Source: a virus
Length of the DNA stretch: 61,874 nucleotides
Reading direction: 5' to 3' (one strand)
IMG/VR virus record: IMGVR_UViG_3300032561_000022
Coordinates: 1-61,874 of that record
Part shown: positions 41,899-54,302 of the stretch, in pieces
Position numbering within the stretch: position 1 is the first letter of the stretch
Layout of the letters: every line of letters begins with the position of its first letter
Notes under the pieces: generated by a model
The model's input: only the letters and a program-made list of their open reading frames with translations
Told to the model about the DNA's origin: nothing
Databases searched by the model: none
Made by a program: the position numbers and the translations under genes

Positions 41899-42747
41899 TT
41901 AGGTTCCCCACTCATTTTTAAATAACGGCACTTGCAATCGATCACTGTATCGCAAACCATGCTTCATTGCCATTAGTGCTACAGATTTAGCATTTAGGTT
42001 ATACACACTTTCAACGCCTCCAACTGGCATAAAGTAAACATGACCTTTAAAACCTGCCGCACGATATTCACTAGCGGCTTTTAATGCATAGTCTCTATCT
42101 TCTTCGGTAGCAATAACAAACTTCAAATATGCTGTGCCAACTTGTTCGTACTCGCAAACTACTTCTGGGCGAATTGCTTCCTCCCACTTTTCGCCACTAC
42201 ATAGAAGTTTAGCACTTACACTAAATGTAATTTCTCTATCATCGTATGCACGTTTCCATGCATTTAGATAGTTAAAGAACTCTTCGCTTAGTCCCTGTGT
42301 ACCATTTGTTTCAAATGTAATTTCTTTCAATCCTGACATTTTAGGATGATTAAGCAAGTCTGGGTAAGCACGTTGCCAACCCAATAATGGCTCGCCACCG
42401 GTAATAACCAAGTGTTCATCTAGCCATTCATTGTGCGGTAAAATTTCTGTAATTCTATCTGCGATTGCATCACTAGTAAGCATTGGACTAAGATCTTTAA
42501 AACTAGGATGCCAGCTAGCATAACTATCACATCCTGTGCTAACCAGTGGCAGTTCTTCATATTTGTTATATAAATGAACTACTTCTGAAATTTCGTCTGC
42601 TTCTGTACTTAGTTGACCCTTTGGCATACCAAATCCAGCACATTTAAAGTTGCAACCAAATGTACGCAAGAAAACAGACGGCACACCCATGTAACGTCCT
42701 TCTCCTTGGATACTATAAAATAATTCTGCGATTTTAATCTTACTCAT
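41899..42747 (-). CDS. queE: 7-carboxy-7-deazaguanine synthase QueE-like (radical SAM)
   Basis: A 282-residue radical SAM enzyme of the QueE family, which turns 6-carboxytetrahydropterin into 7-carboxy-7-deazaguanine. Visible are FYSIQGEGRYMGVPSVFLRT (residues 10-29), GCNFKCAGF (31-39), HLVITGGEPLLGWQ and EITFETNGT. The usual third cluster Cys of C-x3-C-x2-C is absent: residue 39 is Phe, and the next Cys is C73 in STGCDSYASW, which may supply the third ligand. This variant occurs in related phage proteins. FolE, QueD-like and DpdA-like genes share the operon, so the pathway is probably DNA 7-deazaguanine synthesis. The ribosome site AGGA is good. Confidence 0.85.
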   Translation of the reverse strand: MSKIKIAELFYSIQGEGRYMGVPSVFLRTFGCNFKCAGFGMPKGQLSTEADEISEVVHLYNKYEELPLVSTGCDSYASWHPSFKDLSPMLTSDAIADRITEILPHNEWLDEHLVITGGEPLLGWQRAYPDLLNHPKMSGLKEITFETNGTQGLSEEFFNYLNAWKRAYDDREITFSVSAKLLCSGEKWEEAIRPEVVCEYEQVGTAYLKFVIATEEDRDYALKAASEYRAAGFKGHVYFMPVGGVESVYNLNAKSVALMAMKHGLRYSDRLQVPLFKNEWGT

Positions 42748-42970
42748 CTTCGTCCTGTTCTAAAAATTGTGTTACTTGATCTTCAGCATCTTGTAAAAAT
42801 TCTGCATATACTTTAAATGTAGCAACACCGTTACTAGCTCTAATGTCAAAAGGGATGGTGCCTTGCGGCAACCATCCTGGTCCTACTTCTCGTTTAATTT
42901 CAAACAACTGCAATGTTGAGTTGCGTAAACGATGTATTAAATTGTCAGTTATGTCTTTGGCGTTTTGCAT
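42740..42970 (-). CDS. Small conserved phage protein
   Basis: A 76-residue protein from the ATG at 42970 (MQNAKDITDNLIHRLRNSTL), chosen because AAGGA lies 9 nt upstream. The first half is helical; the second is beta (FDIRASNGVATFKVYAEFLQ) and ends in an acidic tail (EQDEDE). It overlaps the upstream gene by 26 nt and the queE start by 8 nt, so it is translated with them. Function unknown; a link to 7-deazaguanine synthesis is only positional. Confidence 0.55.
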   Translation of the reverse strand: MQNAKDITDNLIHRLRNSTLQLFEIKREVGPGWLPQGTIPFDIRASNGVATFKVYAEFLQDAEDQVTQFLEQDEDE

Positions 42971-43292
42971 CTCTAAATTCCTTAACATCTTTAACAGCAC
43001 TTTTTAAAGTTTCTGCGTAATTAAGTGCTTGTTGCTCACCCATAATGAGATTAGATTCAACTTCGATGTAACCTTTAGTTAACAACGTCCAAATCTTTTG
43101 CCAACGATTAAGTGCCCACCACTTTGTTTTTTGTTGAGTATAGACAGTAACGCTAACACCTGTTTCATCTGCTTCTATCCACACGTTATGAGAATGATCG
43201 CAGTCGTCACACTCGCATACAATTTTATAGACTTTGGCATCGCCCCAGTCTTTTTTCATTAAAATGCCTTCGGCAGGTACTTGCGCTTCCAT
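42945..43292 (-). CDS. Conserved phage protein of unknown function, between folE and queE
   Basis: A 115-residue protein starting at TAATG behind folE. It contains a short Cys cluster CECDDCDH (residues about 26-33) followed by a beta segment (VWIEADETGVSVTVYTQQKT) and a Trp-rich stretch (KWWALNRWQKIWTLL). The C-terminal half is a basic helix. The Cys cluster could be a small zinc-binding knuckle. No family recognised. Position inside the deazaguanine operon is suggestive only. Confidence 0.6.
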   Translation of the reverse strand: MEAQVPAEGILMKKDWGDAKVYKIVCECDDCDHSHNVWIEADETGVSVTVYTQQKTKWWALNRWQKIWTLLTKGYIEVESNLIMGEQQALNYAETLKSAVKDVKEFRDAKRQRHN

Positions 43293-44023
43293 TATTTTGA
43301 TGCCCAGTCTTGTTGTAGTTTAATATTGTCAAAGAACTCTTTCTTTGTACCCATATCTGTATTAAACGCACCACGCAATACTGTAGTCTGTGTTAAACTA
43401 CTCTTGGCCATAATACCGCGATTCTCACAGCATCCGTGTGTAGCTTGAATATACACACCTAAGTCTGATGCTCCTGTGGCTTTTTGGATTTCCCTAGCAA
43501 TGTCATTACAAAGTTCCTCCTGGAGAGTACCACGTCTTGCACACCACTGTGCGATTCTTGTGTACTTGCTAAGTCCGATAAGTTTTTGAGCGGCAATAAT
43601 GCCAATATAAGCAACACCAGTAACGGGTTGGTGATGATGACTACACATACTGCGAAGCTCACTACGGACAACCAACATACCTTCGTAACGGTCCTCCGAA
43701 TCATTTGGAAATGCTGTTGCATCTGGTGCTGGTTCATATCTACCTGCCATAATTTCGTTAAAGTACATTTTAGCTAGACGCTTCGCAGTACCATGCGAGT
43801 TTGGATCTGTTTCTCTATCAATTAACAGAGCATCCAATACTTTTTCAAAAGCCACAGTAGCTTCTTCGATTAAGACTTCTTTTTGTTCTTCGTCGATGTA
43901 ATCGCTAATATTGTCACCAGCCCAAAAGCGTTGACCTTGCGATTTCATTTGTTCGCGAATGACCACGTGTAGCGGTCTGCCTTCTGTTTCGTCTATATTT
44001 TTATATGTCATGGATTCAGTCAT
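43292..44023 (-). CDS. folE: GTP cyclohydrolase I FolE-like
   Basis: A 243-residue FolE family protein, converting GTP to 7,8-dihydroneopterin triphosphate, the first step to both folate and 7-deazaguanine. Zinc and catalytic residues are in place: CSHHHQP (C127, H129, H130), GLSKYTRIAQW (150-160), and Cys in ATHGCCENRGI (198-199) matching the second Cys ligand. The length is close to family FolE (about 220). The ribosome site AGGAG is good. It opens the operon that contains queE, which points to 7-deazaguanine synthesis rather than folate. Confidence 0.9.
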   Translation of the reverse strand: MTESMTYKNIDETEGRPLHVVIREQMKSQGQRFWAGDNISDYIDEEQKEVLIEEATVAFEKVLDALLIDRETDPNSHGTAKRLAKMYFNEIMAGRYEPAPDATAFPNDSEDRYEGMLVVRSELRSMCSHHHQPVTGVAYIGIIAAQKLIGLSKYTRIAQWCARRGTLQEELCNDIAREIQKATGASDLGVYIQATHGCCENRGIMAKSSLTQTTVLRGAFNTDMGTKKEFFDNIKLQQDWASK

Positions 44024-44051
44024 TATTACTCCTATGTGTTATTATATAGGT

Positions 44052-44270
44052 TTATTTAGGCAATTGCAATATTTTTTCTGCTCGAAGTTTGCGACAGCCT
44101 TCTTTAACTTGCACAGGATAATCTGGACTAATTTCGGCAATTGAACAATCGTATCTTATTTCAAGTTTTGGATGACTCCAATTGTACCAAAACAAAAAAG
44201 TAAAAGCTATTGTAGCAAAAACAACTACAAATATGACGTCTAAATCTTCTCGCTTAATAATATTTTGCAT
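44052..44270 (-). CDS. Small single-pass membrane protein
   Basis: A 72-residue protein with one predicted membrane helix near residues 10-30 (LDVIFVVVFATIAFTFLFWY), a short basic N-terminus and a periplasm-like or soluble tail with two Cys (YDCSIAEISP and EGCRKLRAEK). The start overlaps the upstream gene by 31 nt. No known family. The two Cys could form a disulfide if the tail is outside. Small phage membrane proteins of this kind include superinfection or lysis helpers, but nothing here shows which. Confidence 0.55.
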   Translation of the reverse strand: MQNIIKREDLDVIFVVVFATIAFTFLFWYNWSHPKLEIRYDCSIAEISPDYPVQVKEGCRKLRAEKILQLPK

Positions 44271-44437
44271 AACTCTGAATCCTTTTGTGATTTAAATTTA
44301 AACAACATATAATCTTCGTGAGGATGATATGTCCATCTATTTCCAGGTAGCCCGTATACTTCTACAACACTAATGCAAGTTTCATTCCACCATTCGTTAT
44401 GCTGATTATTCCAATCAACTCTAACGTCGAAGCTCAT
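44240..44437 (-). CDS. Small conserved phage protein
   Basis: A 65-residue protein (MSFDVRVDWNNQHNEWWNET) with a Trp-rich first half and RWTYHPHEDYMLFKFKSQKD in the second. The pattern, in which a short beta strand is followed by NEWWNETC and then an HEDYM block, recurs in small T4-like phage proteins. It overlaps both neighbours (31 nt downstream, 17 nt upstream). Function unknown. Confidence 0.55.
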   Translation of the reverse strand: MSFDVRVDWNNQHNEWWNETCISVVEVYGLPGNRWTYHPHEDYMLFKFKSQKDSELCKILLSEKI

Positions 44438-44582
44438 TTCGCTCTGCCTCTTTAAGTTCGTCTTTCAAATATTCGATATAACTTGCTAAAACAGTACGTG
44501 CATTTTCCGAATCAGCTCGCATTAAGTCACCTTCGACTTTTTCGAGTTTTTCTTTAATTTCTGTTACTGTAAGTTCTTTCAT
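44421..44582 (-). CDS. 53-residue coiled-coil protein
   Basis: Read directly: ATG at 44582 with AGGA about 9 nt upstream, TAG at 44421. The sequence is a continuous charged helix (MKELTVTEIKEKLEKVEGDL, then LASYIEYLKDELKEAERNEL), so a coiled coil is likely. Its start overlaps the stop of the next upstream gene (ATGA), and its end overlaps the following start by 17 nt, both marks of a real operon gene. Function unknown. Confidence 0.65.
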   Translation of the reverse strand: MKELTVTEIKEKLEKVEGDLMRADSENARTVLASYIEYLKDELKEAERNELRR

Positions 44583-44770
44583 TTTTTTATCCTAGTAGCA
44601 AGTGTACCACTAAACAAGATATTAAACGCTAACCAAGTTTGCCATGTAAGTTCGATATGCAAAACTGGAAATAATGTGTTTAATGCCCAGATACCTAAAA
44701 TAGGACCGAGTGCAATGGCAATTACAATAAATGCAATGCCGAACAGTAATTTAATTAATGCTGATGTCAT
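44579..44770 (-). CDS. Small membrane protein
   Basis: A 63-residue protein from the ATG at 44770 (MTSALIKLLFGIAFIVIAIA), an ATGA overlap with the phosphoribosyltransferase stop; the frame continues upstream but without a start near a ribosome site. It has two hydrophobic segments, about residues 4-30 and 38-56, ending in RIKK. It probably spans the inner membrane twice. No family recognised; a holin-type role is possible but there is no lysin gene nearby. Confidence 0.6.
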   Translation of the reverse strand: MTSALIKLLFGIAFIVIAIALGPILGIWALNTLFPVLHIELTWQTWLAFNILFSGTLATRIKK

Positions 44771-45261
44771 TTCCAAAAATCCTCCCAAGGGTAAACTAAC
44801 CAACAATCTTCTTCTGCTTTGTTGACTTCCCATACGTTATAGTCAACAGATTCTTTGCTAGCTAGATTGTTTGTAAGCGTAGCAAAGCGAACAGTCTTAT
44901 GCCATATATCGTTATCCCAACGAATAGCACTAGGTAAAGCACTTGAACGCCAATCTTGTTTGATCCAAGCAATAGTACTGCCTTGATCATTAATATCATC
45001 TACAACAAGAATATTTTTACCATCGTAAGCATCCTCTGCCATACCGCAGTTACTAACAAGGTCTCCGCCATCACGCAGGCTTACATCTAAGGATTTCATA
45101 GGAATACCTGTGTATTGGCTTAGTAACACAGCAGGCACTGACCCACCACGTGTAATGCCTACAATATAATCAGGACGCCACTGATCATCAATACTCATTT
45201 GACGAGCAATTTCTAAAACTGCTCCTTGGATGTCCTTCCAACTGTAATAAACTTTCTTCAT
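44767..45261 (-). CDS. Purine phosphoribosyltransferase-like protein
   Basis: A 164-residue type I phosphoribosyltransferase. The PRPP motif is clear: ILVVDDINDQGST (residues 84-96), with PDYIVGITRGGSVPAVLLSQ (30-49) as the N-terminal strand-loop. The layout is closest to xanthine/guanine or hypoxanthine phosphoribosyltransferases (Gpt/Hpt). The start is fixed by an ATGA overlap with the gene upstream. In the presence of FolE, QueE and a DpdA-like protein, a role in salvaging guanine released from DNA exchange is possible (inference); general purine salvage is the simple alternative. Confidence 0.8.
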   Translation of the reverse strand: MKKVYYSWKDIQGAVLEIARQMSIDDQWRPDYIVGITRGGSVPAVLLSQYTGIPMKSLDVSLRDGGDLVSNCGMAEDAYDGKNILVVDDINDQGSTIAWIKQDWRSSALPSAIRWDNDIWHKTVRFATLTNNLASKESVDYNVWEVNKAEEDCWLVYPWEDFWK

Positions 45262-45488
45262 GCAGTTAGTCCGTATGCCAATGCTTGACATTCTTCCTTA
45301 GTCATAAAGAAGTTATAAGTTTGTGAGTCGACAACTTCACCGTCTTTCAGAGACTCTTGAACCATATCAATACTAAACAAACCTTTAGGGCTTAGTACTT
45401 CATGTTTGTTAAGAGTCAAGCGAAAGCCTTCGTGTTCTTTGATAACCATTGTTTTAAATGTATCTCTAACTGATTCATGTAGTTCCAT
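45258..45488 (-). CDS. Small conserved phage protein
   Basis: A 76-residue protein from the ATG at 45488 (MELHESVRDTFKTMVIKEHE), chosen because AAAGGAGA lies upstream at good spacing (an adjacent ATG at 45491 is slightly too close). The sequence LSPKGLFSIDMVQESLKDGE, then TYNFFMTKEECQALAYGLTA, looks like a compact alpha/beta unit. It is joined to the phosphoribosyltransferase gene by ATGA. Function unknown. Confidence 0.6.
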   Translation of the reverse strand: MELHESVRDTFKTMVIKEHEGFRLTLNKHEVLSPKGLFSIDMVQESLKDGEVVDSQTYNFFMTKEECQALAYGLTA

Positions 45489-45879
45489 CATTATCTCCTT
45501 TAATACGATGCCATGTTTTATATTTTTCCAATTCATGCATATACTCTTCGTATAATGCTTTGAGCTTTGGATGTTCAGCTTCCATTGTAACATCTCTTGT
45601 TGGAATTTGCAAGAGTGTTTCAATTGTTTTTAACCGTTCTTCCAAGTCAACTCCGTTTATTTTTACAGTACCTTTAACATCTAATGTTGCCGCCTCGGCT
45701 ATTTCCACAGTTTTACTACCGTGGGGAATAGTCATTACAGCATTAGTACCATCATTGAAATTGGTATTTGTATTTGCCCATGCAGTTGTTGTTCCGTTAG
45801 AACCGGACGCCGTTAACACCTGTCCCGACAACCCTTGCGGGTACGGTAGGTTTACTACGGGATTCGATATAATCGCCAT
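45475..45879 (-). CDS. Fibre-like/coiled-coil small protein A
   Basis: A 134-residue protein with two parts. Residues 1-80 are low-complexity, fibre-like sequence (GLSGQVLTASGSNGTTTAWA, then ATLDVKGTVKINGVDLEERL). Residues 81-134 form a charged helix (EHPKLKALYEEYMHELEKYK). The C-terminal helix block is a widespread marine phage motif attached to different N-termini. It overlaps the end of the cupin gene by 83 nt in another frame, so one of the two has overprinted the other. Likely a small virion or decoration protein; not proven. Confidence 0.6.
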   Translation of the reverse strand: MAIISNPVVNLPYPQGLSGQVLTASGSNGTTTAWANTNTNFNDGTNAVMTIPHGSKTVEIAEAATLDVKGTVKINGVDLEERLKTIETLLQIPTRDVTMEAEHPKLKALYEEYMHELEKYKTWHRIKGDNDGTT

Positions 45880-46321
45880 TGTGTATCCATTTATTTTTTA
45901 CGAGAAAGCCCCATTCCCGTTTTTGTGGACCAGGCATAAACAAGGTCCAAGGCGTAACACCGTCTTCTAATTCAATGCGGTGATAGCTATTAGATTTACA
46001 AAATCTAAAGTGGCCAGGGCCACGCCATTGTGCTTTTTCTCCGACTTGGAGACCATCGGAATTGAATAAAGGTGTCCATTCCCAATATCCACCTTTTAAG
46101 ATTAAGGTAGCATATGGCCATGGGTGATCGTGTACATCGCCAGGATCGCCTTTTAAAAATTTATGTAAGAAAATATTAAATGGAAATGATTTACGATCTT
46201 TCAGGAAAAGATAATAACGTTCCAAATATGGTTCTTTACTTTGTCTGTCTAAAACGACACGTTTGCGTCCGTGCTTGTCTAAGAAATTAAGGAATTGGTC
46301 TTTGATCTTCTGGAGTGTCAT
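45797..46321 (-). CDS. Cupin-fold protein
   Basis: A 174-residue protein with a cupin-type metal site: HDH (H64 and H66 in GDVHDHPWPYATLILKGGYW), E81 and a further His (SYHRIEL, H114). That is the H-x-H...E...H set of cupin enzymes and binding proteins. It is conserved in T4-like phages, often as uncharacterised, and could be a dioxygenase, isomerase or sugar-binding protein. The last ~28 residues (NGDYIESRSKPTVP onward) are encoded in DNA shared with the next gene and look like an overprinted tail. No ribosome site is clear. The gene sits between two fibre-like small genes. Confidence 0.75.
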   Translation of the reverse strand: MTLQKIKDQFLNFLDKHGRKRVVLDRQSKEPYLERYYLFLKDRKSFPFNIFLHKFLKGDPGDVHDHPWPYATLILKGGYWEWTPLFNSDGLQVGEKAQWRGPGHFRFCKSNSYHRIELEDGVTPWTLFMPGPQKREWGFLVKNKWIHNGDYIESRSKPTVPARVVGTGVNGVRF

Positions 46322-46700
46322 AGTGGTCTTTCACTAGTTTATAAGTTGTTACAAATTTTTCGTATGCTATTTTCAATCCGGGATATTCTTCACACATCTT
46401 TTGTACACGGTCATAGTCTGGAAAACTATCTACAAACTCTTCCGGCATTTTCCATGTAAAATCTGATACTTTAATATCTGCGATTGAAATTGATGCACCA
46501 CTGGCTATAGTAACACTTCCAGTGGAGTACGTCAATCCCGATCCAATAGTTCCAGTTAATGCGCCTGGATTTGAAATATAATAACTACTACCGCCATTGG
46601 AAATGGTAATATTATCAAGCGAACATATATCTTGTGCTATTATGCCCACGTCGTCACTTGATGTTTGATAGTAATTCACTGGCACTGAAGAAGTACTCAT
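46287..46700 (-). CDS. Fibre-like/helical small protein B
   Basis: A 137-residue protein with the same plan as the 134-residue gene downstream: a fibre-like Gly/Ser N-terminus (ITISNGGSSYYISNPGALTG, then SIADIKVSDF) and a helical C-terminus (MPEEFVDSFPDYDRVQKMCE, then YEKFVTTYKLVKDHYDTPED). The helical block recurs in marine T4-like phages with changing N-termini. It overlaps both neighbours (35 and 47 nt). The ribosome site GGATC fits. Possibly a surface-exposed structural or decoration protein. Confidence 0.6.
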   Translation of the reverse strand: MSTSSVPVNYYQTSSDDVGIIAQDICSLDNITISNGGSSYYISNPGALTGTIGSGLTYSTGSVTIASGASISIADIKVSDFTWKMPEEFVDSFPDYDRVQKMCEEYPGLKIAYEKFVTTYKLVKDHYDTPEDQRPIP

Positions 46701-47721
46701 GTAGATCCTTTGCTTGTTTTCTAACAGAAGGAATCATGCTTTGATAGTTATCCATTAATTGTATAATCTTTCCACACAAGTCTGGTCTAAATACATTATA
46801 AGCATTAAAATCTTCTGTCCATTTACTTGGATATTTGAATGTGTCGTAATACATTTCTGTATAACTTAATCTATCAGGCACTAGTGGAATAGCATCAACT
46901 ACCGCACCTTCATAGCAACTAATGCCTAAAGTTTCTTGTAAGTTAGCACTAAACACCATCTTCGCTTCGCCTAACAAGTTATGATATTCATTTTTTGTTA
47001 GCTGTTGATCCTGACACACTACAAATTCATACTGCGGTAAGTGTGTAGCTAAGTCTCGAAAAATCTCAACTTGCTTCTCGGGCGCGATGCGATGGGGGAA
47101 AAGAATAAGGTCACGTTTGGGCATATTCTTATACATGGTTAATGTATCGTCCATATACTCCATTGGCCAACCTGTGCGAACAACTTTCTTAGTTACATTA
47201 GCTTCTGGAACATAACCTCCTTTGCCTAGTAAATTCTTACCAAACATTTCAATATGGAATGTTGTAGCAAAGTAGTTGTGATCAAATGCGTGATAGAAAC
47301 TTTGTTCGGCATATCTTACCCAAGGCTTATCTCCGACTAAGCGTCCGAGAAAGTCTTGAGGATCATAACTGCCAGCATGCCATAAGCCATGTGTTGTTAC
47401 TGGAATGCCCAGTAACTCACTCATGTACTTTAAGTTTATGATACCAGGGTGCCAAGCATCAGTAAAGATAAAGTGATCACCGGGATGAACGGATCCGTTA
47501 CAAAATAAACGGCCCATTTGCTCAACTTGACTAGACTTGTAAATATTGGTACCACCAAAATTAAGAAAGGCACCAGGAGTAGTAGCTTGAGGAATATCCG
47601 TAGGACCAGATATAATTTGAACATTGTGTCCTTCCTTTCGTAAAAGAGCAGGTACATGGCGTTTCCATTCGCCAGTGTACCTTGTCTCAACTGCTTCTAG
47701 ATCAATTAGAAATACGGTCAT
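46654..47721 (-). CDS. Glycosyltransferase, GT-B fold
   Basis: A 355-residue protein of the GT-B type found in T4-like phages. The N-terminal strand (VFLIDLEAVETRYTGEWKRH), the central block ILFPHRIAPEKQVEIFRDLA (about 207-226) and the donor-binding block ETLGISCYEGAVVDAIPLVP with E-x7-E geometry all fit GT4-like enzymes. Donor and acceptor cannot be read. The gene is coupled by overlap to both neighbours. With a nucleotide-sugar dehydrogenase-like and two oxidoreductase-like genes in the same strand block, a glycan or DNA-sugar modification is plausible. Confidence 0.8.
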   Translation of the reverse strand: MTVFLIDLEAVETRYTGEWKRHVPALLRKEGHNVQIISGPTDIPQATTPGAFLNFGGTNIYKSSQVEQMGRLFCNGSVHPGDHFIFTDAWHPGIINLKYMSELLGIPVTTHGLWHAGSYDPQDFLGRLVGDKPWVRYAEQSFYHAFDHNYFATTFHIEMFGKNLLGKGGYVPEANVTKKVVRTGWPMEYMDDTLTMYKNMPKRDLILFPHRIAPEKQVEIFRDLATHLPQYEFVVCQDQQLTKNEYHNLLGEAKMVFSANLQETLGISCYEGAVVDAIPLVPDRLSYTEMYYDTFKYPSKWTEDFNAYNVFRPDLCGKIIQLMDNYQSMIPSVRKQAKDLHEYFFSASELLSNIK

Positions 47722-47959
47722 TGTTGTAACGTGGGTTTTTGCCTAAGTAAGGTTTGCGTTCGCCTGTGAACGGCTTCTTAGGACGACGTGATTTTTCAAA
47801 GTTTCTCCATGCCCAGCTTTCTCTGTTGTACAGGTGAGCTTCGTCAAATGGAGCCATCTCTAAACGACACCAATCGCGGAATGAATCTAAATCATCGAAG
47901 ATTTTAACAACATCTGGACGGTTTTCGAAATAAGAATAGTCTTTGTAATTTTTAGCCAT
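47702..47959 (-). CDS. Small conserved phage protein
   Basis: An 85-residue protein, acidic and aromatic in its first half (VVKIFDDLDSFRDWCRLEMA, then YNRESWAWRNFEKSR), ending in a basic tail (RRPKKPFTGERKPYLGKNPR). I recognise the type from T4-like phages but not its function. GAGGCTACA precedes the ATG. It overlaps the glycosyltransferase start by 20 nt. Confidence 0.6.
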   Translation of the reverse strand: MAKNYKDYSYFENRPDVVKIFDDLDSFRDWCRLEMAPFDEAHLYNRESWAWRNFEKSRRPKKPFTGERKPYLGKNPRYNNDRISN

Positions 47960-47973
47960 TGTAGCCTCTTGTT

Positions 47974-48363
47974 TTAATATTTGATAAATGAACCATTTTC
48001 TCCATCTTCGGAGACTTCAATCCACACCTCGCGGCCTGGATACTTATTGGAAATGCTGTCATATAAATCACCTGACATCATTTCGCAACTCTTGTAGTCT
48101 AGTTGGAGTGTACCTTCTTTGTACAGATTTTCCAACCAGCGTTTAAACTGAATAAATTCGATATCGCGATCATCGTGTGTAACACTAATCCATACTTTAA
48201 AATGGAATATGTGACGATGCGGATAGCCTAGAAAACTTACATCATATTCATCACCTGTTGCAAGTGTTGGATCTGTAAGTGCGGCCGGATATTTGTGCAT
48301 ACCTTCTTTCTGAAAGGTAACCCAAATCATCTTTAAAGGACGGATGTCTTGTTTAATAATCAT
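47974..48363 (-). CDS. Probable 6-pyruvoyltetrahydropterin synthase (QueD)-like protein
   Basis: A 129-residue protein whose motif order follows the PTPS/QueD fold: an early His (H23, GMHKYPAA), HRHIFHF (H49 and H51) in place of HGH-x-Y-x-V, IEFIQFKRWL like the D-F-x-x-L-K block, a conserved LDYKSCEMMSGDL like the P-S-A-E-N block, and VWIEVSEDGENGS at the C-terminal E position. QueD's catalytic Cys just before the HGH block is not in the usual place, so activity is uncertain. Related phage proteins are usually annotated as hypothetical. Position between queE/folE and a DpdA-like gene supports the role. It overlaps the upstream gene by 11 nt. Confidence 0.5.
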   Translation of the reverse strand: MIIKQDIRPLKMIWVTFQKEGMHKYPAALTDPTLATGDEYDVSFLGYPHRHIFHFKVWISVTHDDRDIEFIQFKRWLENLYKEGTLQLDYKSCEMMSGDLYDSISNKYPGREVWIEVSEDGENGSFIKY

Positions 48364-48880
48364 GTGGTGTATCTTGTGTATATTGATCCCAGTGCGTATA
48401 TTTGTCCATACGCATTAGATCATGGAGTTGATGAGTCCACACACCTGGATTAGTAGCACCCCAAGTGCGATCATCTAGTTTAAGTGTGGCGTTATAGTTA
48501 AGTTGATTAATGTAAGGTAGCTTGACACTAATCATAGGAACAAAGCGAGGATATTCATTATAAGCAGATTCTAAAACACCTTCGATGTGTTCAACGCCAA
48601 AGTCTAGCGTTACCCAAAAGTCTTTCTTTAAACAACCGATAATAACTTCATCCCACGCTTTATATTCTTCTTGTGAAATAGATTTTGGATTAAAACTCTG
48701 ACTAGTGCCAAAGTAAATGTGTGTAACTTTATCTGAACCGCAAGTTGCATGCATTAGAATTTCTTCTAAAGGAGGGGTACCTACCACAAATAGTGTATAC
48801 ATACCATGACAAATAGTATGCTCTACTTCATAACCTGTAAAATAGACAATGTTTTGTCTTTCGTCAGTGTTTAATCCCAT
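48353..48880 (-). CDS. Conserved phage protein next to the QueD-like gene
   Basis: A 175-residue protein with conserved blocks NIVYFTGYEVEHTICHGMYT, EEILMHATCGSDKVTHIYFG, SFNPKSISQEEYKAWDEVII and PRFVPMISVKLPYINQLNYN. I associate this uncharacterised family with T4-like phages. It is joined to the QueD-like gene by an 11-nt overlap and to the oxidoreductase gene upstream by a 10-nt overlap. A role with the deazaguanine genes would be guilt by association only. No enzyme motif is certain. Confidence 0.6.
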   Translation of the reverse strand: MGLNTDERQNIVYFTGYEVEHTICHGMYTLFVVGTPPLEEILMHATCGSDKVTHIYFGTSQSFNPKSISQEEYKAWDEVIIGCLKKDFWVTLDFGVEHIEGVLESAYNEYPRFVPMISVKLPYINQLNYNATLKLDDRTWGATNPGVWTHQLHDLMRMDKYTHWDQYTQDTPHDY

Positions 48881-49776
48881 TTAATATAACCTCTGCTATA
48901 ACCACTCGGACGATTAACGCCGTCCGCAAACGCTTGTTCCCATTCTGTAGTACGATTGTAACACTTTGTCCAGAAGGAATCAACCTCTAGATAGCCTTTT
49001 TCAATCCAATATTTTGCCATATACATGCAATCGATAAACTGAGGATTACGTGGGCTTGGTTTGATAGTGGTAACAGCTTTCCAAAGTTGGACTTGTGCCT
49101 CTTGTTTTGATACAGCCTTACCGACACCGTCGATTATTAAGGCATTGTTATTTAGGTTAATCTGTGGGCCTAGTTCAAAATTACCGCTAAGGTCGATAAC
49201 TACATCATAGTTTTCGATAGTACTGGGCAATAACTTGTCTTGCCAAAGCTCTTTATTACTATGTCCTAGCACATCTACGTGATATATGTAGCCATTTAAG
49301 CGCATAGTATGATACGCAACCCACGCAAGGAAACCACTACCAATAATTAGCATACGTGTGTTTTCACCACGACCTTGTCTATGTTCAATTTGGTCTTTTG
49401 CTTGATTAATAAGGTTAATACCGCAAGCTACTGGTTCTAAAATATACTTAGGTTCGGCTTTTGGTACTCTGACATACTCATCTTCTTTAACATTGTAATA
49501 GTCTGCATACGCAGGTTCACCACGTGTAGCAACAAAGTCACCGATATTAACGTTATTCACTTGCGACCCGATCTTTGTTACTTGACCAATGCCTTCGTGA
49601 CCTTGCATGTGTAATGGCAACGGACCAAAGTCGCCTAACATCATGTCGATGTCACTGCGACAAACACCAGTCATAACTGCTTTAACTTCGATCTCGTTAA
49701 ACGCTATATCAGGTTTGGCATAATCTACTTCTTTAAATACGCCATCGCTAACAGTTTGTAAGCATTTGACCATCAT
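48871..49776 (-). CDS. Medium-chain dehydrogenase-like oxidoreductase
   Basis: About 301 residues from the ATG at 49776 (ATGA overlap with the gene upstream); a second ATG at 49773 and a longer form from 49803 (310 residues) are also possible. The N-terminal GroES-like domain has AVMTGVCRSDIDMMLGDFGP with the catalytic-zinc Cys (about residue 39 of this form) and MQGHEGIGQV with His-Glu, followed by IGDFVATRGEPAYADY. The Rossmann part holds MLIIGSGFLAWVAYHTMR. The four-Cys structural zinc lobe of classic ADHs is not visible. Likely NAD(P)-dependent and part of a sugar pathway with the neighbouring Gfo/Idh/MocA gene. Substrate unknown. Confidence 0.8.
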   Translation of the reverse strand: MMVKCLQTVSDGVFKEVDYAKPDIAFNEIEVKAVMTGVCRSDIDMMLGDFGPLPLHMQGHEGIGQVTKIGSQVNNVNIGDFVATRGEPAYADYYNVKEDEYVRVPKAEPKYILEPVACGINLINQAKDQIEHRQGRGENTRMLIIGSGFLAWVAYHTMRLNGYIYHVDVLGHSNKELWQDKLLPSTIENYDVVIDLSGNFELGPQINLNNNALIIDGVGKAVSKQEAQVQLWKAVTTIKPSPRNPQFIDCMYMAKYWIEKGYLEVDSFWTKCYNRTTEWEQAFADGVNRPSGYSRGYIKWD

Positions 49777-50654
49777 AAAACTTCGATTCGTTTGTGTATC
49801 CATATATCTTGTTCTAGTTGTTCTTGCCAGAAGTCGTTATTATTTAGGTTTTCAACAGCATCTTTAATCATATTTAGGTAAGCATCCTCTGGACACCATC
49901 CTAATTCAAAACGTTCTACTGTGTTATTTTGCATTATAAATTCGATGGCACTATTTTCATAGCTCATGCTACGCCAATTAGCACTACAATGCCATTTATT
50001 ACCAAAGTCAATGTGGCATTTATCATCTACATCATATGTACCGTTTGGATTAACAACACCATATTCAGTGCTGTCGATGTCTTTTAATTCCCACATCATC
50101 TGTGCGCCCTGCCCGTTTACTTGATCGTTACGCCAATTGGGGTTCATAGCAATATACAGGCTCAACAAGTGTGGCATTAAATCACGACTAACACCGCCGA
50201 ACGCTAATTCGCGTGTAGTAAACCAACTACCGGGGCTAGGAATACAGTTCTTTCTAGTCCATTCAATGTTTACACTTTTAGCTTTATTTGCAGATTCTTT
50301 TAATTCTGCAATGTTACTACGCCACTGATTGTTCTTAACCATCATGAAGCGTGTCTTAGGAAATGATTTAACTAAAGTTTCCCATACATTAGAGCTAGCA
50401 ACACCTGGCTTTTCGATAAAAACAATATCGCTTACTGGAGCAAGTTTACGTGCAATTTCAAAGTGTGTAAAATTAGGAGTACAAATATGTACAGTATCAA
50501 ACATACGGCATTCTTCGATAGCCGCATCTACAGTTAAGAAGTCGGCACCTTTAGAAGGATTGCTATCTACAGTAATAATACCGTGTCCGAGTTTATCTAG
50601 TACAGTAGCATATAAGTTGCCAATGCCCATACCTACAATAAGACTAGTTTTCAT
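49773..50654 (-). CDS. Gfo/Idh/MocA-type oxidoreductase
   Basis: A 293-residue protein with an N-terminal Rossmann strand (SLIVGMGIGNLYATVLDKLG), the THICTPNFTHFEIARKL-like region (VHICTPNFTHFEIA), EKPG (about residues 81-84, Lys of the family signature) and a C-terminal domain including WFTTRELAFGGVSRDLMPHL. These are hallmarks of NAD(P)-dependent sugar oxidoreductases. The fingerprint is GMGIGN rather than the usual GxGxxG spacing, a small variation. Coupled by 11 nt to the gene upstream. Likely acts on a nucleotide sugar or free sugar made by the same pathway. Confidence 0.78.
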   Translation of the reverse strand: MKTSLIVGMGIGNLYATVLDKLGHGIITVDSNPSKGADFLTVDAAIEECRMFDTVHICTPNFTHFEIARKLAPVSDIVFIEKPGVASSNVWETLVKSFPKTRFMMVKNNQWRSNIAELKESANKAKSVNIEWTRKNCIPSPGSWFTTRELAFGGVSRDLMPHLLSLYIAMNPNWRNDQVNGQGAQMMWELKDIDSTEYGVVNPNGTYDVDDKCHIDFGNKWHCSANWRSMSYENSAIEFIMQNNTVERFELGWCPEDAYLNMIKDAVENLNNNDFWQEQLEQDIWIHKRIEVL

Positions 50655-50895
50655 TCTTTTCTGCCTTTGATTGTTCGTATTGCTTAAACATACGTGTTAC
50701 ATCTTCCATGCGTTTAGCAAATATTTCTGGTGCTAGTCCTGCCGCATGATGCATATCGTATTCGTTAGGATAGTGACGCAAACATGCCCTTGCTCGGTCT
50801 TTAATTGCTTTGGGAACCCGAGGAGTAATAAGGATCTCAGCTAAAAACTTTTGAGTCTCTACTACTGCTCGGTATCTTTCATCAGGTAATGTCAT
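50644..50895 (-). CDS. Small conserved phage protein
   Basis: An 83-residue protein from the ATG at 50895 (MTLPDERYRAVVETQKFLAE), which lies in the last codons of the dpdA-like gene (14-nt overlap); a longer frame runs back inside that gene and is a shadow. The sequence TPRVPKAIKDRARACLRHYP is a conserved feature of small phage proteins with unknown role. The C-terminal 40 residues are helical and charged. It is coupled to the Gfo/Idh/MocA gene downstream. Confidence 0.65.
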   Translation of the reverse strand: MTLPDERYRAVVETQKFLAEILITPRVPKAIKDRARACLRHYPNEYDMHHAAGLAPEIFAKRMEDVTRMFKQYEQSKAEKNEN

Positions 50896-52597
50896 GTACA
50901 CTGGCCTCGAGTTCGTCAAGTTTATCAATAACGTCTTCAGAAAATTCTGTTTCATCTTCTGATTGTACAGTATCTGCATCCTCTTCGTCAAACAATTCGA
51001 AGTATTTGGTACTTGAGTTAACTGTTTTCTTGCCGGTGTAACCTCGTGTGCCCGGGATAGCCATCCAAAATTTGCTAAATTCATCGATAATAGCATTGGC
51101 AGTATCGCGATCCGGTGCGCCAATAATAGCATCAATTACATCTTTAGCATATAATCTATCAAATGTTTCTTGAACTAACATAGTTGGGCATAATCCAGCA
51201 TCATATTGACGGTTGGCTTCTTGGACGGCATTAATATGCATCCAAACATTATGACCCATCATAATAGCATAAGTGAAACTATCCCAACTTGTCTTACCAA
51301 TTTTACCTAATTTATTAACATCATTAGGTCCGTAGATACAAATTTTATTAACTTCAACACCGTCCATCACTGGGCTAGTTTCAAAGTTCTTAAAATGACC
51401 GTCTTGTACTACTGCATCTTGGAAGAGTCGTGTGTCAGAGGCGTATTTCTTGTTGTCAATAGACGGCAACATTCTGTAGAGCCACTTTTGTCTGTCTGTG
51501 ATTTCTGTTTGAACGTAGATTTGTCCGTTTGCCGTTGCAAGGAACGGTGAGGCGCAGTCAAAAGATATGGTAAAGTTTTCATTATGATATTTCCTTACAG
51601 CACGTTGAATGTCTGTGAGCAGTAACGCCCACTCTAATTTACTAGTTCCAAGAAAGTGCATCCAGTCTTGATGACCTTTTTCTAGTAATCCGTCGAACTT
51701 CAATGCCACGACCCTTTTTAAAACAAGGTGTGCATCACACATATTTTGTCCACCCATTGCCCAACCATTAAATGGTTTGTCGAATTTAGTTGGATCGCAA
51801 AAATGTTTCATCTTTTGATACCAATCTTCGGCTTGGCTATGGTTTTCCCCTTGCAGAACGTTTAAGAACTTGCAAGCACCTGTACGATGTTTAATAAAAT
51901 ATTCATTATTGTATATTGTAGCGTTAACAGCTTGGTCGTATGATGTAATACCAGTGGCTTTCATACCATCCGGACTACGAGCTACCCACGCTGGAATATC
52001 AAGCACCATACCATAGTCCATTAACGCATCCATCCACGCAAGCACTTGCTCACGTTTCTTTTGTGCCGCATCTAATTGTGCTTGATACAACTTAGGGTGA
52101 TCTATCTTAGACATCTTTGGATTACCATTTTTATCTAATTTAGGATTACCAGTAGCATCTAGTTGCGGAACTAGTTCGATACCTTTAGCATTAACTTCTA
52201 CCCACTTGGCCGCAACTTCTGGACCGGTGGGATCTCTCCATTCTCCGGCCCATACACCTTTACCAATTTGGAATCCACCTGAATCACCTAGTACCCAACT
52301 AGTTGTACGATCTCTATTGCGAAACATGTCTTCGCTGTCGTCCTGTTTAGTCAAGTCTAAATTAGCATGACCTGCTGAATATAAGCAATGATCATAATAA
52401 AATGCACCTTTATCCGGCTCTAAGTAGTTAAGACTTTCTACACCATTTTTAAAACTAGCCGGCACTCTTGCAGGATCTACATAATTTCCATAGCGTTGTT
52501 TACCTATATAGGTACTATAGAAACCACTAGTCGCTGGCAAAAAATATGCGTAATCGTTTTGTGTAGCTGTTAAGTTACGATTCAAAGTTGACCCCAA
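50882..52597 (-). CDS. dpdA: DpdA-like DNA 7-deazaguanine transglycosylase
   Basis: A 571-residue protein with tRNA-guanine transglycosylase landmarks: GDSGGFQIG (D105) like the TGT D-S-G-G-F-Q catalytic block, NVLQGE (246-251), GWAMGG (278-283), and FDCASPF (D347) matching the TGT nucleophile region. The full TGT zinc cysteine set is not seen, as in phage DpdA variants. Known role: exchanging guanine in DNA for a 7-deazaguanine, protecting phage DNA from restriction. FolE, QueE and a QueD-like gene in the same block support it. The start must be TTG: a TAA directly precedes 52597 in frame and the first ATG is about 90 codons later. A TTG at 52585 is the alternative. The start lies inside the DUF2061-like gene, so translation may be coupled. 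Confidence 0.85.
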   Translation of the reverse strand: MGSTLNRNLTATQNDYAYFLPATSGFYSTYIGKQRYGNYVDPARVPASFKNGVESLNYLEPDKGAFYYDHCLYSAGHANLDLTKQDDSEDMFRNRDRTTSWVLGDSGGFQIGKGVWAGEWRDPTGPEVAAKWVEVNAKGIELVPQLDATGNPKLDKNGNPKMSKIDHPKLYQAQLDAAQKKREQVLAWMDALMDYGMVLDIPAWVARSPDGMKATGITSYDQAVNATIYNNEYFIKHRTGACKFLNVLQGENHSQAEDWYQKMKHFCDPTKFDKPFNGWAMGGQNMCDAHLVLKRVVALKFDGLLEKGHQDWMHFLGTSKLEWALLLTDIQRAVRKYHNENFTISFDCASPFLATANGQIYVQTEITDRQKWLYRMLPSIDNKKYASDTRLFQDAVVQDGHFKNFETSPVMDGVEVNKICIYGPNDVNKLGKIGKTSWDSFTYAIMMGHNVWMHINAVQEANRQYDAGLCPTMLVQETFDRLYAKDVIDAIIGAPDRDTANAIIDEFSKFWMAIPGTRGYTGKKTVNSSTKYFELFDEEDADTVQSEDETEFSEDVIDKLDELEASVHDIT

Positions 52598-52755
52598 TTA
52601 ATTTTGTTCCATACTCTTTCATGCACATAAAAGCAAATAGTTGTTAATGCGTGTACGGCTAGTGCAGTACCTAGTCCAGTGATAGGAATAGTAACTGCAA
52701 TGGTTAGTATTTTAAAACTAACCATCTTTACCATGCTTCGTTTTTTCGAGTCCAT
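52582..52755 (-). CDS. DUF2061-like membrane protein, 57 residues
   Basis: Read directly: ATG at 52755, overlapping the clamp stop codon (TAATG), to TGA at 52582. The sequence VSFKILTIAVTIPITGLGTA is one membrane segment, and VHALTTICFYVHERVWNKIN continues it. The end VHERVWNKINWG is the hallmark of DUF2061 proteins, which are small membrane proteins of unknown role. Its last 16 nt overlap the TTG start of the dpdA-like gene. Residues 1-11 are basic, so the N-terminus probably faces the cytoplasm. Confidence 0.75.
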   Translation of the reverse strand: MDSKKRSMVKMVSFKILTIAVTIPITGLGTALAVHALTTICFYVHERVWNKINWGQL

Positions 52756-53486
52756 TACTTGCTCTGTGCTGGTAATGTATAGTTGTAAACAGCGATTCCG
52801 CTATCTACTGTAATTTGCATTGCACCAACATCTGCAATACGTATAGTTTTGTCACCTGCTAAGTTTAAAATGCTTTGTACTTGTGCAACAGGCCAAGCCC
52901 ATTGTTGTTTTAGTTTACCAGTAATACCTGATTGGAAAATAAATGAACCTGCGTGTGTGTTTGCATCACCGAAACTGAATACTAAATTACCATTTTCAGT
53001 CTTAACTTGGAATGTAGTTTCTTCAGTGTGTGCGGCCGCTTGATACTTTAACTTTTGAATACTTGCAACACTTGGTTCAAACACTACTTCCCAGTTAGCA
53101 CCTTTGAATTTAACACTCTTCATTTTTTCGTTAATGATTTCTTGATTCATAAAACGATAATCATTTTCAAAATCGCCTAATGCGTTTTGAAAGTGCAATC
53201 CAGTTGGCACATCTTCTCCGTTGCGATTCTGTACAACAACACTAATGCCAGCACCTTCTTTGTATTCTGGACACTTTAAATGCAAATCTAGTTTATTTAG
53301 ATTTGGCATACCGAATGTACCTTCTAATTGGTCTACAGCATTATGAGTCTTGCCATCTACAATAACAGTACGATCTTCTGCCATTGTTTCAATCTTAGTT
53401 TCTTTGGTAGTTGAACTAATTCTAACCAAAGGTAAGAAACCTAAGCTATGTGTATGTGCAACTAAATCTTGTAAAAAGTCTTTCAT
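52755..53486 (-). CDS. 45: DNA polymerase sliding clamp, gp45-like
   Basis: A 243-residue protein from the ATG at 53486; GGAGA lies 5 nt upstream, and the ATG at 53498 is part of that ribosome site. Length and layout fit a T4-type PCNA-fold clamp (T4 gp45 is 228 aa): LEGTFGMPNLNKLDLHLKCP corresponds to the interdomain part of domain 1, and SIQKLKYQAAAHTEETTFQV, then GSFIFQSGITGKLKQQWAWP, to domain 2. Similarity to T4 gp45 itself is faint, so the call rests on layout and on its place next to DNA polymerase. It has its own promoter with perfect -35 and -10 hexamers (16-nt spacer). Confidence 0.72.
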   Translation of the reverse strand: MKDFLQDLVAHTHSLGFLPLVRISSTTKETKIETMAEDRTVIVDGKTHNAVDQLEGTFGMPNLNKLDLHLKCPEYKEGAGISVVVQNRNGEDVPTGLHFQNALGDFENDYRFMNQEIINEKMKSVKFKGANWEVVFEPSVASIQKLKYQAAAHTEETTFQVKTENGNLVFSFGDANTHAGSFIFQSGITGKLKQQWAWPVAQVQSILNLAGDKTIRIADVGAMQITVDSGIAVYNYTLPAQSK

Positions 53487-53506
53487 ATGATTCTCCATGT
53501 TTTTCT

Positions 53507-53534
53507 ATTATACTTTCTTTTGTGACTATGTCAA
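53507..53534 (-). promoter_or_regulatory. Sigma70-type promoter for the clamp gene
   Basis: On the minus strand: TTGACA (53534-53529), a 16-nt spacer, TATAAT (53512-53507). Both hexamers are perfect consensus. The expected start lies near 53500, giving a leader of about 14 nt before the ATG at 53486. The -35 overlaps the last codons of the dehydrogenase gene upstream. Confidence 0.8.
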
Positions 53535-54302
53535 TGTTTTTCTAATTTTTTTGTTATATTTTATTGCCGATTCTACTAGAGTATGAATTATTCCAACTTT
53601 ATCAGCATAATGTACAAATGCACTAGTGTCTTTGGGGAAACAAGCACCGCCAAAACCACGTGATCCATCAGGACCGGGGACTTGCATATGACTATTGCCA
53701 ATCCTGTCATCCATTTGCAGTAGTTCGATAACTGTATTATAATCAGCGCCGTTTATTTGGCACATATCATATAACTGATTAAAGAACGCTACTTTGACAC
53801 TTAGGAAACAATTAGTGGCATATTTTACCATGCTTGCTTCTGTTAGTGTACAATGTTCAATGTTATTTAGGTGTTTAAGTGAATCGGTGAATAAATTACT
53901 CCAAATATTTCCGGGATTACTTCCGCCTAAAATCATATATTCCTGATTGGCAAAGTCTTCGTTAGCAGTAGCCGCACGTAAAAACTCTGGACTATAGGCA
54001 ATATTGTGTTTAGGAAAATCGGTAATAATCTTATTCAAATAGTCTGGACGTACTGTACACTTGATTAATACAGGCAACGTTTCAGGAACCTTTTTCATTA
54101 CTGCATATACTTGACTAACATCACAATCTCCTAGCTCAGTACTAGGAGTTCCCACACAAATAATAATACCATCTGCATCTGGATAGTGTTCTATTTCAGC
54201 AGTGGTATATTTTGGATCTACAATGTAAACATTGTTTTTATCTATCAGCGAATTGTAAACAGCTTTGCCGACAAAGCCATATCCTGCAATTATAATTTTC
54301 AT
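53526..54302 (-). CDS. UDP-glucose/nucleotide-sugar dehydrogenase-like protein, short form
   Basis: A 258-residue protein carrying the first part of the UGD/UDP-ManNAc dehydrogenase family: GYGFVGKA (7-14), CVGTPSTELGDCD (49-61), IAYSPEFLRAA (101-111), ATNCFLSVKVAFFNQ and the catalytic Cys in GFGGACFPKD (C221). Bacterial enzymes have 390-450 residues; here the third, nucleotide-sugar-binding domain is missing, so it is a natural truncation or uses a partner. The stop/start with DNA polymerase is TAATATG. It could supply or modify a sugar for the glycosyltransferases. Confidence 0.82.
   Translation of the reverse strand: MKIIIAGYGFVGKAVYNSLIDKNNVYIVDPKYTTAEIEHYPDADGIIICVGTPSTELGDCDVSQVYAVMKKVPETLPVLIKCTVRPDYLNKIITDFPKHNIAYSPEFLRAATANEDFANQEYMILGGSNPGNIWSNLFTDSLKHLNNIEHCTLTEASMVKYATNCFLSVKVAFFNQLYDMCQINGADYNTVIELLQMDDRIGNSHMQVPGPDGSRGFGGACFPKDTSAFVHYADKVGIIHTLVESAIKYNKKIRKTLT

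Follow-up and report, generated by a model that had tools for sequence, protein, structure and literature searches.

Gene content of the locus

The window analyzed here is the whole of IMG/VR virus record IMGVR_UViG_3300032561_000022, a genome fragment of 61,874 bases, in which a closely packed minus-strand block runs from a DNA polymerase gene (54304-56973) down to the gene of the 7-carboxy-7-deazaguanine (CDG) synthase QueE (41899-42747). The block also encodes a DpdA-type transglycosylase, a QueD-fold protein named QDL here, a probable glycosyltransferase (GT), a phosphoribosyltransferase (PRT) and FolE, and this phage gene set probably replaces guanine in DNA with a 7-deazaguanine made without QueC. 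From its head, the block consists of the DNA polymerase, a UDP-glucose-dehydrogenase-like gene, a clamp-like gene, the DpdA-like gene, two oxidoreductases, a 175-amino acid (aa) protein and QDL, followed by the GT-like gene, the PRT, FolE and QueE, with small genes interspersed. Broadly the same order recurs in the 45 related loci listed, as far as each contig extends, and for this reason the block goes beyond a chance arrangement. A first-pass annotation had already placed folE, a QueE-like gene and a DpdA-like gene in one strand block, in line with the arrangement seen here; its interpretation is supported in part, and it had missed the QDL family and the linked glycosyltransferase and phosphoribosyltransferase. 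The genes that carry the argument are as follows.

50882..52585, minus strand: predicted DpdA-type DNA-guanine transglycosylase, 567 aa; open reading frame (ORF) open to a TTG at 52597; tRNA-guanine transglycosylase (TGT) fold with Asp motifs
47974..48363, minus strand: QDL, 129 aa, QueD-fold (T-fold) paralogue with QueD/PTPS structural matches; candidate CDG decarboxylase
46654..47721, minus strand: probable GT4-type glycosyltransferase (GT), 355 aa, with an E-x7-E motif (ETLGISCYE); linked to QDL
44767..45291, minus strand: xanthine/guanine-type phosphoribosyltransferase (PRT), 174 aa; PF00156, E 9.4e-13
43292..44023, minus strand: FolE, GTP cyclohydrolase I, 243 aa; PF01227, E 1.2e-38, 132.7 bits against a curated cut-off of 27 bits; phrog_2197
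41899..42747, minus strand: QueE, 7-carboxy-7-deazaguanine synthase, 282 aa; phrog_2076 'QueE-like', E 8.4e-51

CDG synthesis genes

Phage-borne genes for CDG synthesis, as the first-pass annotation had proposed, are indeed present, with FolE over its Pfam cut-off and QueE assigned through its PHROG family and retained cysteines. Five NCBIfam QueE models also match the latter (E 2e-14 to 2e-10), all under cut-off (best 53.6 versus 206 bits). The cluster ligands (C32-x3-C36-...-C73-D-S) and the GGEP and ETN motifs are kept; C73 is shifted by an insertion, yet it is found in 19 of 19 QueE rows of the alignment, whose 20th row, a QueC, was left out of the QueE profile. Relatives of QueE occur in 178 phage records.

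A search of the whole window with PF01242 (QueD) gave no candidate at an E limit of 10. The same family was found in seven of the 13 longer relatives, in BUCT-ZZ01 and in 12 of 21 further contigs carrying QDL, and the QueD cysteine (SHCxxxHGY) is kept in all seven QueD sequences of the relatives. In the 161 kb relative G001, QueD is encoded ∼56 kb from DpdA. Since relatives carry QueD elsewhere and the window has none, the QueD of the window phage is probably encoded on the unsequenced part of its genome. A terminal repeat was not detected between the ends of G001, which may thus be incomplete. Judging by sequence, IscA/HesB-like, superoxide-dismutase-like and UV-endonuclease-like proteins (6178-8738 of locus L099) are encoded close to its QueD and may be clues to the host.

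QDL is a QueD-fold family distinct from QueD

The first-pass annotation had mentioned, without coordinates, a 'QueD-like' gene that we take to be 47974-48363, and QDL is used here as the family name for its relatives. The top PDB matches of the QDL structure model are QueD/PTPS proteins (Foldseek E 3.6e-5, VIA Z 11.3-11.6), including E. coli QueD (4ntk), which aligns across 107 residues with a VIA Z of 11.3 and has a Foldseek E of 3.6e-5. The likeness is one of fold only: QDL, unlike QueD, has no match to PF01242 at E <= 0.1 and lacks the cysteine of the CxxxHxH motif, presumably the catalytic residue, whose position by HxH spacing is held by an invariant leucine (L45) in 13 sequences (those of the window, of a close relative and of the 11 named lineages). 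Residues H23, H49, H51, H63, R66, E69, S92-C93-E94 and E119 are among those invariant in the same alignment, and by analogy with the QueD fold H23, H49 and H51 would bind a metal. PDB sequence searches with QDL profiles gave marginal matches only (2hfq E 0.054; 5jm7 E 0.28; 1y13 E 0.72), and a comparison with QueD profiles aligned the C-terminal part alone, with a probability of 85. Because relatives have both QDL and a genuine QueD, and given the missing PF01242 match and cysteine, we rejected the reading of QDL as QueD; the QueD-like label is thus the part of the earlier observation that falls, while FolE, QueE, the DpdA-like gene and the lack of QueC in the window stand.

QDL belongs to PHROG 17812 (phrog_17812), a family of unknown function. 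In the phage collection it was found in 26 records that we grouped into 11 lineages: Phosso, RHph_I1_18, 11 PA5oct-type records, two of ACP17, X1, Bakedbeans, Ahp1, D479, BUCT-ZZ01, five of Cellulophaga and MA9V-3. FolE lies within the stretch examined in all 11 lineages save PA5oct, where QueE is found instead. This spread, alongside FolE or QueE, led us to reject the idea of a general cyanophage gene. In Bakedbeans (6212-7360) and MA9V-3 (8464-9342), QDL forms the C-terminal part of 383- and 293-aa proteins, respectively, neither of which has a Pfam match. Xanthomonas phage X1, also a QDL phage, encodes a PAPS-reductase-type PP-loop protein (4846-5376; PF01507, E 1e-13) adjoining FolE.

QDL stands where QueC is missing

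QueC (PF06508) was not found in the window, nor does its SGGxDS motif occur in any window ORF of at least 60 aa, in accordance with the first-pass annotation. The 13 longer relatives, one of them 161 kb in length, gave no QueC over cut-off, and the complete records searched for BUCT-ZZ01, PA5oct and Phosso gave none either; across the named QDL lineages, a whole-record PF06508 search with one record each left 10 of 11 without a match over cut-off, among them X1, whose 16-bit match is under it. One longer relative, G004, has a weak PP-loop match to QueC (19 bits), and proteins of this type were rejected as a general QueC substitute as they were found in only 2 of 19 records. The earlier suggestion that QueC may be encoded elsewhere or supplied by the host is weakened by these results and by the presence of QDL in phages without QueC, with D479 and 2 of 21 large QDL contigs as exceptions; its companion idea of a base not derived from preQ0 is strengthened.

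Among QDL-free control records, 9 of 10 have QueC over cut-off, with none in Bipper. These ten were our own choice: PhiXhv-12 was included through its GT, and the other nine are known or annotated 7-deazaguanine phages. For that reason we added less biased contig scans, using two QDL queries (35 loci with the ACP17 query, and the best 80 loci of the second scan, close to the window) and two QueC queries (17 and 6 loci). An Aeromonas QDL used as a scan query gave no confirmed relative. With the 80 DpdA loci described below, 217 loci were searched, bounded by contig ends and 10 kb flanks: QDL was found at 177, QueC at 23, and the two together at none of the 200 loci with either one. The 177 QDL loci represent 170 distinct contigs (seven being second views) and 143 distinct QDL ORFs. 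Some of the loci counted had themselves contributed sequences to the profiles used for QueC, QDL and GT.

Whole-contig searches gave a similar picture. Of 21 QDL contigs, 17 have no QueC-family match and two have one under cut-off; the distant QueC-like PP-loop proteins seen in this set (G014, G016, G018 and G034) are all >20 kb from QDL. Conversely, 12 of 13 whole QueC records lack QDL, the other having a marginal match (11.9 bits). The division also runs through phages with a DpdA2-type enzyme, in that nt-1, Moby and pf16 have QueC whereas ACP17, X1 and BUCT-ZZ01 have QDL and GT. With QDL occurring in its stead, the absence of QueC thus marks a recurrent alternative branch.

A predicted DpdA-type transglycosylase with relatives annotated as hypothetical

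Family libraries barely recognise the DpdA-like protein (TIGR00449, E 0.068); the Pfam search returned no TGT family, and a PDB sequence search with the DpdA profile gave no match. When its predicted structure was compared with the PDB by VIA, all 50 of the 50 matches listed were tRNA-guanine transglycosylases or TGT subunits (Z 11.3-13.0), with 277-313 residues aligned at a root-mean-square deviation of 4.6-5.9. Six aligned sequences, among them the homologues from PA5oct, Vibrio phage 2.275.O and Phosso at 29-37% identity, all keep the motifs DSGGFQ and S[FY]Dx[AS]S. We take DSGGFQ and S[FY]D to hold the two catalytic aspartates, the latter providing the nucleophile. D101 and D343 are invariant in 25 close relatives as well as in six sequences down to 29% identity, and the loss of catalytic aspartates upon alignment, which the first-pass annotation had named as an argument against its own assignment, did not occur. 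With this fold and these catalytic-type residues, 50882..52585 very probably encodes a DpdA-type transglycosylase that would exchange guanine in DNA for a modified base.

Neither the window nor G001 has a match (E <= 0.01) to a profile of six DpdA2-type proteins (of the nt-1, Moby and BUCT-ZZ01 type). Relatives of the window protein were found in 365 IMG/VR stretches, 80 of which were kept for locus counts, and in 13 records of the phage collection, every one annotated as hypothetical. The window protein is encoded together with 7-deazaguanine synthesis genes; its homologue in PA5oct lies ∼2.8 kb from QueE, and that in Vibrio phage 2.275.O has QueC, FolE and an annotated preQ0 reductase nearby. 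DpdA of one of the two groups, mostly the window's own, is present at 144 of 170 QDL contigs, and five of the 11 named QDL lineages have one (BUCT-ZZ01, PA5oct, Phosso, ACP17 and X1).

Directly after its same-group DpdA, Vibrio phage 2.275.O encodes a putative amidoligase (13723-14832; PF12224, E 1.8e-4, just under cut-off), in a cluster that also holds QueC, the annotated preQ0 reductase and a vitamin-uptake-type transporter. The DNA of this phage possibly contains an amino-acid adduct of preQ1.

A probable glycosyltransferase and a phosphoribosyltransferase linked to QDL

The window GT itself has no Pfam Glycos_transf match; its homologues in X1 and BUCT-ZZ01 are above the Pfam glycosyltransferase cut-offs and those in ACP17 and PA5oct below. 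GT relatives were found in 19 phage-collection records, 15 of which are QDL phages, the other four aligning over 65% of the length; the ACP17 query in addition picked up BUCT-ZZ01. In the two QDL scans GT was present at 18/35 (ACP17 query) and 75/80 (best 80) loci, versus 0/23 QueC loci, with loci cut by contig ends scored as lacking it. After clustering, the counts were 8/10 QDL versus 0/8 QueC clusters at 60% identity (Fisher p 0.001) and 9/14 versus 0/10 at 70% identity. GT is found on 138 of 170 distinct QDL contigs, and on 137 of these it lies within 2.5 kb of QDL, at a median of ∼990 bp.

Xanthomonas phage PhiXhv-12, one of these four, has a GT relative one gene from Gat-QueC, with a PIG-L deacetylase between the two and a GFO/IDH/MocA gene after it. 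Together with an acetyltransferase, these genes form a cluster (2328-10752) suggestive of an amino-sugar modification connected with archaeosine-type synthesis.

The PRT matches PRK09177 (xanthine PRT) with E 4.4e-13, under the NCBIfam cut-off. It was found at 45/80 and 15/35 loci of the two QDL scans (best 80 and ACP17 query, respectively) and at 13/23 QueC loci, and in BUCT-ZZ01 it adjoins QueE. Its presence at QDL and QueC loci alike is as expected, since recycling would be common to DpdA systems, and guanine salvage is the simplest role for it because each base exchange frees one guanine. Alternatively, by analogy with the tubercidin pathway, the PRT could have a TubE-like role on CDG.

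A proposed pathway to modified DNA

We propose the following route. FolE and QueE, both encoded in the window, and a QueD seen in relatives only would make CDG, on which QDL, instead of QueC, would act as a likely metal-dependent decarboxylase to give 7-deazaguanine, an assignment in which we have middling confidence. The DpdA-type transglycosylase would then swap guanine in DNA for the QDL product, and the GT4-type enzyme would add a sugar to the modified base, a tentative step suggested by gene linkage. The PRT would salvage the guanine displaced by DpdA, which is a plausible but evenly balanced assignment. Taken as a whole, the view that the window encodes a branch of phage 7-deazaguanine DNA modification that does without QueC, in which a QDL decarboxylase, DpdA, GT and PRT work together, is one for which we see the case as about equally poised. 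That the DNA of such phages contains a glycosylated 7-deazaguanine, with QDL processing CDG, DpdA inserting the product and GT glycosylating it as a C7 C-glycoside or through a carboxyl, is a possibility that we advance with some reserve.

Several observations weigh against the proposal. The decarboxylase role of QDL draws on a reported prediction (DpdL, discussed below) and on the logic of replacement, and a 7-deazaguanine without further groups lacks a usual site for attaching a sugar. Only five of the 11 named QDL lineages have GT, which was not found in phiST, RHph_I1_18, Bakedbeans, Ahp1, D479 and MA9V-3. In these same six lineages neither DpdA profile matches the stretch examined (14-40 kb each), and the association of QDL with DpdA is thus shown for the other five lineages. 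The DpdA-like structure model has a modest pLDDT of 60.6, and by Foldseek alone it has no match at E <= 0.001. D479 has QDL together with a divergent, partial QueC match of 32.8 bits, and 2 of 21 whole QDL contigs have a distant QueC-like PP-loop match just over cut-off, confined to the C-terminal part. Finally, as the sequence is fragmentary, the QueD of this phage, and any QueC encoded beyond the window, are out of view. Precedent is also at odds with the proposal: in the tubercidin pathway, the accessible text of PMC6112128 assigns CDG decarboxylation to TubF, a UbiD-family protein and not a QueD paralogue.

We considered four other explanations. In the first, CDG itself is inserted into DNA (giving dCDG), with QDL, for example, handing CDG to DpdA, and GT either esterifying the carboxyl or being unrelated. 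dCDG is reportedly a phage DNA base (Cui 2023); FolE, QueE and a QueD encoded elsewhere would suffice for CDG where QueC is absent, and the carboxyl would give GT the attachment point that 7-deazaguanine lacks. However, QDL takes the place of QueC across unrelated phages, which suggests that it consumes CDG, and the retention of a putative metal triad and of other invariant polar residues in QDL is what one would expect if it were an enzyme. On balance we consider insertion of CDG unlikely.

In the second, QDL and GT jointly, and not QDL alone, place a sugar on the base, at C7 or on the CDG carboxyl. The tight spacing of the two genes on all but one of the contigs that have both is in favor of this, as are the QDL-GT unit in bacterial genomes and the related GT one gene from Gat-QueC, beside the PIG-L deacetylase, in PhiXhv-12. 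Against it, six of the 11 named lineages have QDL without GT, and QDL must therefore have a role of its own, making such joint action rather improbable. A third explanation has QueC supplied by the host, or encoded on the unsequenced genome part, with a base derived from preQ0. The window is a 61.9-kb fragment, many bacteria have QueC, and D479 and two IMG/VR QDL contigs encode divergent QueC-like proteins; yet the searches of the 13 relatives (with their single 19-bit match), of the full BUCT-ZZ01, PA5oct and Phosso records and of 19 of the 21 large QDL contigs, along with the lack of any locus with both QDL and QueC among 200, render it very unlikely. The weakest explanation, that these genes are for making a small molecule or tRNA queuosine rather than for DNA, with the PRT acting on CDG like TubE (a CDG phosphoribosyltransferase according to the accessible text of PMC6112128), fits a Streptomyces QDL-QueD-FolE locus without a DpdA match within 8 kb, but is highly improbable in view of the DpdA genes, mostly of the window's group, at 144 of 170 QDL contigs and of the DNA polymerase and clamp-like genes adjoining DpdA.

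Neighboring genes and cellular genomes

The remaining annotated genes of the block are listed below.

54304..56973, minus strand: DNA polymerase, 889 aa, which heads the block; phrog_262, E 6.1e-197
53526-54302, between the polymerase and the clamp-like gene: short UDP-glucose-dehydrogenase-like protein, 258 aa, with N-terminal and central domains matched
52755..53498, minus strand: sliding-clamp-like protein upstream of DpdA, 247 aa; phrog_12062 (function unknown)
49773..50654, minus strand: accessory GFO/IDH/MocA-like oxidoreductase, 293 aa; PF01408, E 1.6e-5; at 52 of 82 loci searched
48871..49803, minus strand: accessory ADH-like oxidoreductase with a GroES-like domain, 310 aa; PF08240, E 1.2e-10; at 52 of 82 loci
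48353..48880, minus strand: 175-aa protein adjoining QDL; present in 68 of 82 loci

The Phosso homologue of the clamp-like protein is annotated as a sliding clamp, and homologues also occur near DpdA in PA5oct and Vibrio phage 2.275.O. The 175-aa protein has no match in Pfam, PHROG or NCBIfam searches, and a homologue (E 9.7e-22) is encoded directly upstream of DpdA2 in ACP17. A PADLOC search of six proteins gave no match. Elsewhere in the window, a single ORF of 4945 aa (5525-20362) matches the virion structural protein family phrog_10938 (E 1.4e-295).

Relatives of QDL were also found at 24 loci in bacterial and archaeal records, with no QueC match within 8 kb of any of them. Several are metagenome bins with the phage gene order (L271-L275), and these contigs may be viral. 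Four loci in three Magnetospirillum genomes have GT, QDL and a DpdA grouped closely together as a unit. The QDL-QueD-QueE-FolE cluster of Amycolatopsis vastitatis is probably part of a prophage, since terminase, portal and capsid genes adjoin it. In Streptomyces sp. NEAU-Y11 (7905-9630; L292/L293), QDL, QueD and FolE are adjacent, and the locus has no DpdA or QueC profile match within 8 kb; it may be a pyrrolopyrimidine natural-product cluster.

Comparison with known systems and implications

Cui et al. 2023 (NAR) is said to report dCDG and dDG in phages and to predict a CDG decarboxylase, DpdL; phiST, a QDL carrier in our analysis, is presumably one of the phages concerned. Those phages reportedly share with the window a QueC-less route starting from CDG, whereas a linked glycosyltransferase and the DpdA group of the window are not known to be among their features. 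It is our guess, and one we lean towards, that QDL is DpdL. The name 'DpdL' together with 'deazaguanine' gave no match in the literature searched; the accessible text of PMC12783734 cites Cui et al. 2023.

As far as its accessible text goes, PMC6884629 describes phages with DpdA and DpdA2 and groups them by gene content. The dPreQ0/dG+ phages among them (9g, CAjan and nt-1) resemble the window in that FolE, QueD, QueE and a TGT-related DpdA are phage-encoded and replace guanine in DNA. They differ in having QueC or Gat-QueC, where the window branch has QDL and GT with no QueC seen, and the window DpdA goes undetected by the DpdA2 profile. In the same text, QueC is noted to be missing from Mycobacterium phage Bipper and uncultured phage clone 7AX_2, with CDG, the QueC substrate, as a possible base for Bipper and an incomplete sequence as a possible cause for 7AX_2. 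Both are like the window in combining DpdA and CDG genes without QueC, which was not matched in Bipper in our search either; unlike the window, Bipper has no QDL.

The tubercidin pathway (TubA-TubI), in the accessible text of PMC6112128, likewise uses CDG with no QueC homologue in its gene table, has a phosphoribosyltransferase in the cluster (TubE) and decarboxylates to a 7-H base, whereas its product is a nucleoside antibiotic and not DNA. With decarboxylation assigned there to a UbiD-family protein, the pathway does not support QDL by precedent.

Our literature search found no report of glycosylated 7-deazaguanine in DNA, including in papers on PA5oct, ACP17 and phiST with deazaguanine, though subscription papers lay mostly outside the search, which makes this weak evidence of absence. 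What is new here is a module of QDL and glycosyltransferase that takes over from QueC, along with a DpdA group annotated as hypothetical in the 13 matching phage records. A testable rule follows: among phages with 7-deazaguanine genes, QueC and QDL would mostly be alternatives, with QDL often accompanied by a glycosyltransferase. If our reading is right, the DNA base of many uncultivated phages could be predicted from gene content, and a function could be assigned to the unknown family phrog_17812. A glycosylated 7-deazaguanine, if true, would be a new hypermodification of guanine in DNA, borne by many uncultivated viral contigs, by BUCT-ZZ01, ACP17, PA5oct and Phosso, and by some bacterial genomes. 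It could then be sought in phages that are already culturable, and such a sugar-carrying base would matter for restriction resistance, for artefacts in sequencing and for the building of phage tools.

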